From an uncultured Flavobacteriales bacterium (GTDB lineage Bacteria > Bacteroidota > Bacteroidia > Flavobacteriales_D > Crocinitomicaceae), in NCBI GenBank assembly GCA_943789205.1, contig CALSTG010000001.1, positions 1,912,435-1,976,434 of the forward strand: a DNA stretch of 64,000 nucleotides, written 5' to 3'. Position numbers and translations under genes: made by a program. Positions 20,563-23,333 of this stretch are shown here, piece after piece (position 1 is the first letter of the stretch; the number at the start of each line of letters is the position of its first letter). A model generated the notes under the pieces. The model was not told where the DNA came from, did no database searches, and saw only the letters and a program-made list of their open reading frames with translations.

Positions 20563-21580
20563 TTTTATTAATTTTAGACGCAGTTTTTTTACGGTCTAAC
20601 TTTCCATTAATGGTTCGTTCGAACGATGAAATAAAGGTAACCATTTTCGGTATTTCGTAGGGATGTAAAATTGATTTGAGATCAGCTTTCCGAATATTTA
20701 CACTATCCTTTGTTCCTTTTATTATCAGTCCTACTTTTTCCCCAAATTCTAAATCCTTTAACCCAGTTAATAGAATTTCATTGCTAAATAATTTTTGAAT
20801 TTTATCTTCGATAATTTCGGGTGAGATCTTATATCCTCCGGAATTAATCACGAAATCATTACGTCCAATCCATTTAAAATGTTGGGCGTCTTTTAGCTCA
20901 ACTAGATCGTTTGTCTTTATTACGGTTGTAGACATTTTTGGATAATGTATTAACAAACAACCATCCAATGTTTCGAATGAAACACCGGCTATCGCCTTGT
21001 AATTTGTCTCCTGAAGGTATCCTGTTTTTTTTAAGGCAATATGAGATACAGTTTCTGTCATACCATAGCTTTGGTAAACGGTAACCTTATTTTTAATTAG
21101 CTGTTTTTCTAATTCTTTTGAAATTTGTGCGCCTCCAATTAAAATATTTCGGCAACGCTTTAATTTGTCTATACCATCTGCTGTATTCATAAAGCGTCCA
21201 AGCTGTTTAGGGAATAGTGCAATAAAGTCGCTTGGTAAAGATAGATTTCCTGTAGATGCATTCACTGAATAAACCTTCAAATGCATGCCTCCAATTAATG
21301 CACGAACGATCATCATTTTCCCAGCAATAAATTCTACTGAAATACACAGTGAGGCTTTGTATTTAGGTTTGAGGTTAAAAAAACCAATCGTATTTTCCGC
21401 AGATAGCACAAGCGCTTCCTTTGAAATGCGGATGGCTTTTGGTATACCAGTTGATCCAGAGGTATGGCAGGTGATAAACGGCACATCAGTTTCTAGTTCT
21501 TCAATAAAAGAGTTTATTGTACTTTTTTGCTCTTCTGAATAAAAGTCAATTAAAAAATCTTTATGAGGTATAATCCTCAA
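20540..21580 (-). CDS. menE: AMP-binding ligase, probably o-succinylbenzoate--CoA ligase
   Basis: An adenylate-forming enzyme of 346 residues, shorter than the usual 450 or more because the N-terminal subdomain is reduced. This is typical of Bacteroidota MenE. The ATP-binding loop [17 protein letters not shown] is at about residue 37, then [46 protein letters not shown], and the C-terminal catalytic Lys in NGKLDRKK. MenE activates o-succinylbenzoate with CoA in menaquinone synthesis. No other men gene is nearby, so the substrate is inferred from size and similarity. It overlaps the end of dnaX by four bases, which couples its translation to the long dnaX product. Confidence 0.78.
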
Positions 21581-23333
21581 AATTCAATGTCTAAATTGAA
21601 TAAGTTTTTCAAAGTATTCAGGTTTGGATTTTTTTTCGCCATTGCCTTGAACTTGTCCTTTCCGTGCATGAGTTTTATATCTTCTACAGGGTTTTCAGTC
21701 AGCTCAATTTCAATGGTAATATTATAATTTTGTACACTTTTTCTTATAAAGGAAATAAGCTCATTTAGCAATGGTTTAATATAGTCGACTTGAATTTGAT
21801 TTTCTACAAATAATTTGAGTACATCGTTCTTTTCAATTAATGGATCTCTTTTAACCAATGCATTATAGAACGTTTCTTGACCTTCATCTTTAACCTGGAA
21901 TGCATATTGCCTCCAAACTCTTACAAGTCTATCCGCAGTATATTTTTCTTCAGGAAGATTTTCATCAGCAGGTTTATTTTTGAGCTCCTTTTCTTTCTTT
22001 AGCATATCCTTTATGGAAAGGCGGCTTTCAGATTTTTTGACAATTTTTGGAATTGGAAGAGGCTGATTCTCAGTTTTCTTTGAGTTTTCATTAATCTCCA
22101 CGTCAGACATTTTTACTGACTGAGTGTTGACTGGCTTCTGCTCTTGTTTCGGTACTACTTTCTTTTTTTCTTTACGAAGTGATTTTTCAGGAAAGGGTAA
22201 AAAGTCAATACGATCCGTTAGGGCTTTTTTTTTTCTTGCTCTTGTTTGAGTGAACAGAGCTCCATTAATGCAACTTCAACAAGAAGCCTTGGGTTTTTTG
22301 AAGACTTGTAGGTGTTGTCGGCCTTACTTAAAGCGTAAAGAGCTCTCGTAATAGTGTGATAAGGAATCCCTTTTGATTGCTCAATATATCTTTTTTGAGT
22401 CTGTTCCGGTACTTCTAGCAAAGTTGCAGATCGATCGTCTTTACAGACTAATAAATTCCGGTAGTGTGATGACAATCCTGACAAGAAATTATGCGCATCA
22501 AAACCTTTCTCAAGGATTTCGTTGAAGAGTAACAAGGAACCTGGAATATCCTCTTTTTCAGTGAAGTCGACAAATTTGAAAAAATAATCATAGTCAAGAA
22601 TATGAAGATTTTCAATGACTTGATTGTAGGTTAATTTATTTCCTGAAAAAGTAACCATTTGATCAAAAACAGACAAAGCGTCTCTAAGTGCACCATCTGC
22701 TTTCATAGCAATTAAGTGAAGAGCTTCAATCTCCGCCTTAACTTTTTCCTTTTTTGAAATTTCAGCTAAATGTTCGGTAATATCTTTTACAGTGATACGC
22801 GAAAAATCAAAGATTTGACATCTCGATAATATTGTAGGAATTATTTTATGTTTTTCAGTAGTTGCTAAAATAAAAATAGCATGCTTCGGAGGTTCTTCTA
22901 ACGTTTTTAAAAATGCATTAAATGCATTTGTTGAGAGCATGTGGACCTCATCAATAATATAGACCTTGAAATCACCGAGTTGCGGTGCAATGCGCACCTG
23001 GTCTATAAGTCCTCTTATATCTTCAACGGAATTGTTAGAGGCTGCATCCAGTTCATAAACATTTAGAGAAGCTCCCGAATTAAAACTTTCACAAGAGTCA
23101 CACTTATCACAGGCTTCTGTGTTTTCAGTTCTTTGAGTGCAGTTTATCGTCTTCGCTAAAATTCTTGCAGTTGTTGTTTTACCAACGCCCCTCGAACCAC
23201 AGAAAAGAAAAGCTTGTGCTAAATGTTCTTTTTTAATGGCGTTTTTGAGTGTGCCTGTAATAGACTTTTGACCAACTACGGTATCGAAAGTCTGAGGGCG
23301 GTATTTTCTTGCTGAAACAACAAAGTCACTCAT
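21577..23333 (-). CDS. dnaX: DNA polymerase III gamma/tau subunit, frame change at an A10 run
   Basis: DnaX is the clamp-loader ATPase. The zero frame (23333 to 22218, 371 residues) holds the AAA+ domain: FDTVVGQKSITGTL, Walker A GSRGVGKTTTARI, four zinc-binding Cys (CTQRT...CDKCDSC), Walker B VYIIDEVHMLS, sensor TTEKHKIIPTILSRCQ, and domain III. It ends KKKP-stop directly after a run of ten A. The -1 frame continues without a stop from that run to 21577 through ALTDRIDFLPFP, a basic linker and a tau-like C-terminal domain (TADRLVRVWRQYAF; DVLKLFVENQIQVDYIKPLL). The joined protein would be 585 residues. The end of the -1 frame overlaps menE by four bases, so it is under selection as coding sequence. 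The zero-frame product alone would resemble gamma. Confidence 0.9.
22224..22234 (-). other. Slippery A10-G tract in dnaX
   Basis: On the coding strand the run reads GAA AAA AAA AAG CCC TAA in the zero frame. It thus contains A AAA AAG, the same heptamer used for programmed -1 frameshifting in E. coli dnaX, followed at once by a stop. Ten A is also long enough for RNA polymerase slippage as in Thermus dnaX. A GGAG lies 25 bases upstream, farther than the spacing that stimulates shifting in E. coli, and I see no strong downstream stem. One missing A from sequencing is the alternative. Confidence 0.6.

Follow-up and report, generated by a model that had tools for sequence, protein, structure and literature searches.

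A conserved A10 run in dnaX of a Flavobacteriales bacterium is probably a site of transcriptional slippage that gives two clamp-loader subunits

The dnaX gene of Escherichia coli has been described as the site of a programmed -1 ribosomal frameshift (PMC5009743, PMC3711429), and dnaX of Thermus thermophilus as the site of transcriptional slippage at an A9 run (PMC1088944, PMC5009743). Slippage has also been reported to be needed for the longer product of mxiE in Shigella flexneri (PMC1088944). Two-ORF dnaX genes were reported in 2013 in a set of 17 genes, all of them with a -1 shift and nine of them with an A10 run, and transcriptional realignment was suggested for them (Antonov et al., PMC3711429). 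According to a 2016 review, such two-ORF cases occur in many fewer bacteria (PMC5009743).

We examined a dnaX gene of the two-ORF kind in a stretch of 64,000 nucleotides from an uncultured Flavobacteriales bacterium, which is referred to here as the window. The features on which the analysis rests are the following.

22225..22234, minus strand: A10 run in dnaX, the putative slip site, read as ten T on the plus strand; 176 of 217 loci have at least nine A's where the site is homologous
22218..23333, minus strand: zero-frame dnaX ORF (gamma), 371 aa, with DnaX domains I-III, ending in EKKKP and the stop
22218..22220, minus strand: zero-frame stop TAA, which ends gamma
22205..22207, minus strand: +1-frame stop TGA, six codons past the run, closing the second non-productive frame
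21577..22224, minus strand: C-terminal part of tau in the -1 frame, 215 codons plus TGA, evolving as a protein
22239..22241, minus strand: codon 365, which is GAG in every one of 30 genus loci despite a codon usage that favours GAA
20540..21580, minus strand: menE-like ORF with a TTG start and a four-base overlap with the tau stop, scoring below the curated cut-off

The zero-frame product matched PF13177, PF22608 and PF12169 (the last over residues 237-367). Gamma comprises the clamp-loader ATPase, the lid and domain III, and its last match stops at residue 367, at the run. The final zero-frame codons are GAA AAA AAA AAG CCC TAA, with the stop as the second codon after AAG. These coordinates and matches bear out the preliminary description, which had proposed complete clamp-loader domains followed by a stop two codons past A AAA AAG. 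It had also proposed that the -1 frame stays open after the run with a tau-like domain, and this agrees with the 215 codons found there and with the ORF at 21577-22110 inside them, which matched the C-terminal part of the DnaX model PRK14971 (E = 2.2e-18; profile positions 458-613 of 614). The clamp-loader domains end the zero frame and tau lies in another frame, a layout that reverses the one in E. coli as had been anticipated: it is tau, and not gamma, that needs a change of frame at A10. A four-base overlap at the end of tau had previously been pointed out; the bases common to the tau TGA and the TTG start of the next ORF were located at 21577-21580. The best NCBIfam match of this ORF was menE (E = 1.5e-32), with 113 bits against a cut-off of 330, and we call it menE-like. 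Among 29 of the 30 loci from the genus and its near neighbours (L024 was left out, its tau being cut off), 23 have an ORF of at least 120 codons after tau; 22 of these ORFs start between -11 and +4 nt from the tau stop and one, in L026, starts at +37 nt. No ORF of at least 120 codons was found after tau in the other six.

A homopolymer is a classic error site, and an A11 run misread as A10 during sequencing or assembly, or a degraded dnaX, would produce a similar break. We found an A10 run with tau at -1 in 28 of these 30 dnaX loci, one of which is that of the window. The zero frame ended at codon 371 in all 23 same-genus dnaX matches; one of the 24 same-genus genomes searched (G012) gave no dnaX match. 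In the -1 frame, the mean pairwise difference was 0.34, 0.23 and 0.63 at codon positions 1, 2 and 3 (codons 3 to 16 past the run, compared over 29 loci), and tau evolves as a protein in the -1 frame directly past the run. Because the same run and frame recur in 28 of 30 loci, sequencing error is rejected for the genus, and error or decay can hardly account for the locus. The suggestion that one A had been missed in an A11 run falls on the same count, and the proposal to align related dnaX genes was answered by recurrence of both run and stop. Two loci depart from the common pattern: L010 has A11 with tau at -1, and L062 has A11 with tau at 0 and is a natural frame flip. The +1 frame reached a stop within six codons of the run in all 30 loci.

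To place the run in a wider setting, 217 distinct dnaX loci were assembled from Bacteroidota, some of which were placed in this phylum, that of the window, by kinship. Loci L005-L061 and L062-L141 are best matches to the protein of the window in searches, and L063 was left out as a duplicate of L012 (identical over the compared part), as were L002-L004, which are not dnaX. The search for the run was confined to a stretch near the homologous codon, and whichever frame stayed open longest past the run was assigned to tau. A run of at least nine A's was present at the homologous place in 176 of the 217 loci (A9 in 28, A10 in 134, A11 in 12, A12 in one and A13 in one). A homopolymer of at least eight at the frame transition is a feature of programmed transcriptional realignment (PTR; PMC3711429), and the run found here is both longer than this and conserved among relatives. 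In an even draw of 61 genomes of the class, the own genus and order included, A9-A11 was found in 57 (A10 in 44, A11 in seven, A9 in six), with tau in frame 0 in 29 of these, at -1 in 27 and at +1 in one. All 14 genomes of one group (g19, Flavobacterium by inference) carried A10 with tau at -1. Outside the class, 41 loci (L181-L221) were hand-picked from 184 matching genomes among 186 searched, a short frame being the reason for choosing seven of the loci; the run was present in 17 of the 41, which gives no prevalence because these loci were hand-picked from the matches listed.

Among the 41 of the 217 loci that have no run of nine, the zero frame extended over at least 541 codons in 37. A tau outside the zero frame (82 of 176 run-bearing loci) goes with the run, because loci without it mostly have a long zero frame. 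The exceptions were L111, which runs off its contig, and L112, L115 and L125, which carry no A run and whose zero frames close at codons 383, 366 and 441, respectively. At the break in L112 there is an overlapping +1 frame of 266 codons. These three short frames may be errors or may reflect another mechanism. It was also noted that the run is absent from the site in L045, L047, L091, L104 and L124, where the zero frame covers 581-671 codons; these lineages (L091, L104 and L124 being Bacteroidaceae or Bacteroides) may have lost the slip site.

Long A runs are scarce in the surrounding DNA. A9 words were rarer in the window than chance predicts (5 vs. 16.4 expected from shuffles), and the genome contained 24 A10 words at 20 places, compared with about 254 expected from the dinucleotides of the window. 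Among the other 19 A10 places in this genome, four lie inside ORFs of 80 aa or more. One (L237) lies mid-gene in a 411-codon ORF that looks glycosyltransferase-like by eye, two (L223 and L236) are no more than about 35 nt away from an ORF start, L236 being an A11 right after the start, and one A10 (L240) lies within a 106-aa ORF. The runs in L237 and L236, rare within the coding sequence of this genome, make phase variation or slippage possible there. Within the 371-codon gamma part of dnaX, synonymous-codon constraint peaked at codons 365-371, which cover the run and its edges (30 genus or near-genus loci). We also compared 69 representatives, defined as run-bearing loci under 75% identity, with a synonymous null that keeps the residues and uses the codons of each gene. 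At least nine A's were expected in 24.7 of the 69 and observed in 69, a comparison that serves only as a yardstick because the representatives were chosen for having the run.

While the run stays, the tau frame changes in evolution. Over the 176 run-bearing loci, tau lay in frame 0 in 94, at -1 in 77 and at +1 in five. An HMM representing the C-terminal 150 residues of the zero-frame taus matched 79 of the 82 off-frame peptides at E ≤ 1e-10, and the three without a match were cut by contig ends; none of 82 reversed decoys matched. All five +1 peptides matched at E ≤ 1e-38. On a FastTree phylogeny of the N-terminal part without the run (217 rows), the tau frame changed about 24 times, and well-supported branches alone required 15 changes of the label 0, nine of -1 and three of +1, counts that place the run-less rows among the others. 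On a tree of the 69 representatives, 16 changes were obtained, and the numbers forced in the same way were 8, 8 and 1. Both trees were built quickly and have weak support at many of their forks. The shift direction is thus unconserved among orthologues, which is a feature of PTR, and a related rule given by Antonov et al. (2013; PMC3711429) holds that orthologues with different shift directions indicate transcriptional realignment.

The frame change could be followed at the level of single bases. Two Aquimarina dnaX genes that are 93% identical, both with A10, have tau in different frames, and their spacers differ in length by one base. The sequence ATAATNCC was found within 30 nt after the run in 29 loci. 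The 15 loci with tau at -1 all have a spacer of 12 nt between A10 and ATAATNCC; the spacer was 13 nt (five loci), 10 nt (two) or 20 nt (one) in eight loci with tau at 0, and 10 or 20 nt in two loci with tau at +1. The phase of the run differs between some of these ATAATNCC-bearing loci and varies as 106/47/23 over the 176 loci, and the base following the run varies too.

Gamma and the C-terminal part of tau might instead be two separate proteins, the second beginning at a start codon of its own after gamma. The window offers an ATG as the 39th codon after the run in the -1 frame (22108-22110). ATG, GTG and TTG were absent from the first 40 codons of the -1 frame in 19 of 29 genus loci with tau at -1, any one start position was common to at most two genus loci, the codons that directly follow the run show conservation at the protein level, and tau is fused in frame 0 in the 94 loci mentioned above. 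An independent tau start was rejected, as its start codon is not conserved, and we consider it extremely improbable.

The next question is which machine slips. A ribosome shifting to -1 enters one alternative frame, and polymerase slippage feeds all three, so that the distance to a stop in the third frame discriminates between them. Both non-tau frames stopped within seven codons in 147 of 176 loci, compared with 16% (downstream) and 18% (upstream) of control positions, and in 53 of the 69 representatives, compared with 15.3% of controls, the controls being positions in the same genes and not independent genes. The third frame stopped within seven codons in 56 of 69 representatives versus 36.6% of controls (binomial p ~4e-14); this is the +1 frame for tau at 0 or -1, and the -1 frame for two representatives with tau at +1. 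In all 77 loci with tau at -1, the zero-frame stop lay at most seven codons past the run. Nearby stops in both non-productive frames, a feature of PTR as in Thermus dnaX, are therefore found here. The third-frame stops and the tau in the +1 frame match the prediction of slippage, and -1 ribosomal shifting explains neither.

A conserved recoding site at this locus is real, as seen in its anatomy, its conservation, its closed non-tau frames and a tau frame that changes while the run stays, and RNA polymerase slippage at A10 is most likely what acts there. Under this model, RNA polymerase would stutter on the A10 template and give mRNAs with 9, 10, 11, 12 and so on A's. The unchanged A10 message would give gamma, ending at the stop two codons past the run. 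Messages whose frame has moved by -1 (A11, also A8) would be translated through the tau C-terminus up to the start of the next gene, and the remaining frame would meet its stop six codons past the run and give a gamma-sized product as well. That polymerase slippage on ten A's would give both forms, as in Thermus, had been put forward in the preliminary description, and the run, the drifting tau frame and the third-frame stops back it. From these comparisons we infer RNA polymerase as the slipping machine, the production of both proteins and their ratio. It is probable that the single dnaX gene of this Crocinitomicaceae-like flavobacterium gives rise to both clamp-loader subunits through transcriptional slippage.

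Tau could also arise by programmed -1 ribosomal frameshifting at A_AAA_AAG (or A_AAA_AAA), with gamma as the unshifted product. The window carries the E. coli heptamer in frame; the same holds for 38 of the 77 loci whose tau is at -1 and for 58 of all 176 run-bearing loci. The codon after AAA AAA was AAG in 15, AAT in 13 and AAA in two of the 30 genus loci, and the base following the run within the genus was G in 16 and T in 14. These counts do not uphold the heptamer, to which attention had been drawn, as the core element; the conserved element is the run itself, mostly A10. For ribosomal shifting, tau in the +1 frame (five loci) is out of reach and the third-frame stops are left without a reason. 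The -1 stops, in turn, are tightest in loci with tau at 0, where they lie nearer (median 1 codon) than the +1 stops (median 5). This pattern would be predicted by -1 ribosomal shifting, and also by one-base insertions of the polymerase.

The sequence upstream of the run carries a signal of its own. Codon 365 was GAG in 30 of 30 genus loci, although GAA makes up 70% of the Glu codons of the gamma part. This GAG sits five to seven bases before the run and is constrained as strongly as the run. Shine-Dalgarno (SD)-like 4-mers were enriched upstream of the run (89 of 176 loci vs. 16%; 28 of 69 representatives vs. 17%), mostly 4-9 nt before it among the relatives, and G was over-represented at positions -5 (36 of 69 representatives) and -1 (39 of 69). 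The constrained GAG, the enriched 4-mers and the over-represented G's speak for a ribosomal stimulator and count against pure slippage, for which a run alone would do. An SD at 9-14 nt upstream is reported to be wanted for -1 stimulation (PMC5009743). By arithmetic, about 8 nt separate the end of GAG from the heptamer in the window, and for GGAG in many Flavobacteriaceae-like loci this distance is about 4 nt. Five SD 4-mers were tested, and the window has none of them. According to a published report, SD sequences are not recognised by the ribosomes of Bacteroidia (PMC9976891), and frameshifting at the prfB motif of F. johnsoniae has been reported to be low (PMC12421855). The upstream signal fits either a ribosomal stimulator set too near or an RNA-polymerase element; the GAG with G at -5 and -1 may be a pause element for RNA polymerase or an SD-like stimulator.

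Folding downstream of the run was also assessed. Folds with z < -2 occurred after the run in 9.7% of cases compared with 10.3% of controls, the window itself had z = 0.3, and the mean z was -0.40 (175 loci) versus -0.16 (174 control stretches). A downstream hairpin as a ribosomal stimulator was rejected, with hardly any excess over controls apart from four loci. These four (L029, L030, L119 and L200) have a strong hairpin in the 60 nt after the run (z of -3.8 to -4.3), unlike most loci, and it is possibly an added ribosomal stimulator or a structure that enhances slippage. Weighing both sides, we regard ribosomal frameshifting as the source of tau as unlikely.

Both processes might also act together, with polymerase slippage giving mixed messages on which ribosomes slip too; one of the two would then be tuned by the GAG or SD-like element upstream. 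Poly-A sites have been described as substrates of either mechanism (PMC3711429, PMC5009743), and the upstream element is conserved. Nothing in our comparisons separates joint action from pure slippage, and the upstream words do not have one fixed place. We consider joint action very unlikely.

Returning to slippage by RNA polymerase, a broader model can be drawn for the class, which we hold to be evenly balanced between right and wrong. Bacteroidia dnaX would be frame-neutral: an old slip site of about A10 would feed three frames, the tau frame would drift freely, and which product is the standard one would be interchangeable. GAG, the G's at -5 and -1 and the run would together form a composite pause-and-slip element. 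If true, the replicative clamp loader of most sampled members of a large class would depend on the stuttering of RNA polymerase, and a dnaX whose tau is off frame would be annotated as short or broken. The class would also serve as a natural experiment, in which a conserved protein domain has a reading frame rendered nearly neutral by a slip site. The third-frame-stop test could then separate polymerase slippage from ribosomal frameshifting by comparison and without RNA data.

A search of the literature, which left supplements and most subscription papers outside its range, found no report of a +1-frame tau or of frame drift through Bacteroidota. The dnaX arrangement is of a known kind, and its new aspect is the freedom of the tau frame. 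E. coli dnaX shares the gene and the products with the window, where A_AAA_AAG is also found. The window differs in that the shift is needed for tau and not for gamma, in its long run, in having neither an SD 4-mer at 9-14 nt nor a stem-loop signal, and in a shift direction that is not conserved among its relatives. The mxiE gene of S. flexneri resembles it in that the longer product requires slippage; mxiE is a transcription activator gene with a U run, whereas a replication gene with an A run is concerned here, and class-wide. T. thermophilus dnaX is alike in its A run, in yielding tau and gamma from one gene and in the stops in both non-tau frames, but tau lies there in the zero frame and in the window at -1. 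In the two-ORF dnaX genes of Antonov et al., gamma likewise ends just past the poly-A run and tau lies at -1. Theirs are all -1, whereas we found tau also at +1 (five loci) and at 0 beside the same run, and the site was traced here through most sampled genomes of a class.
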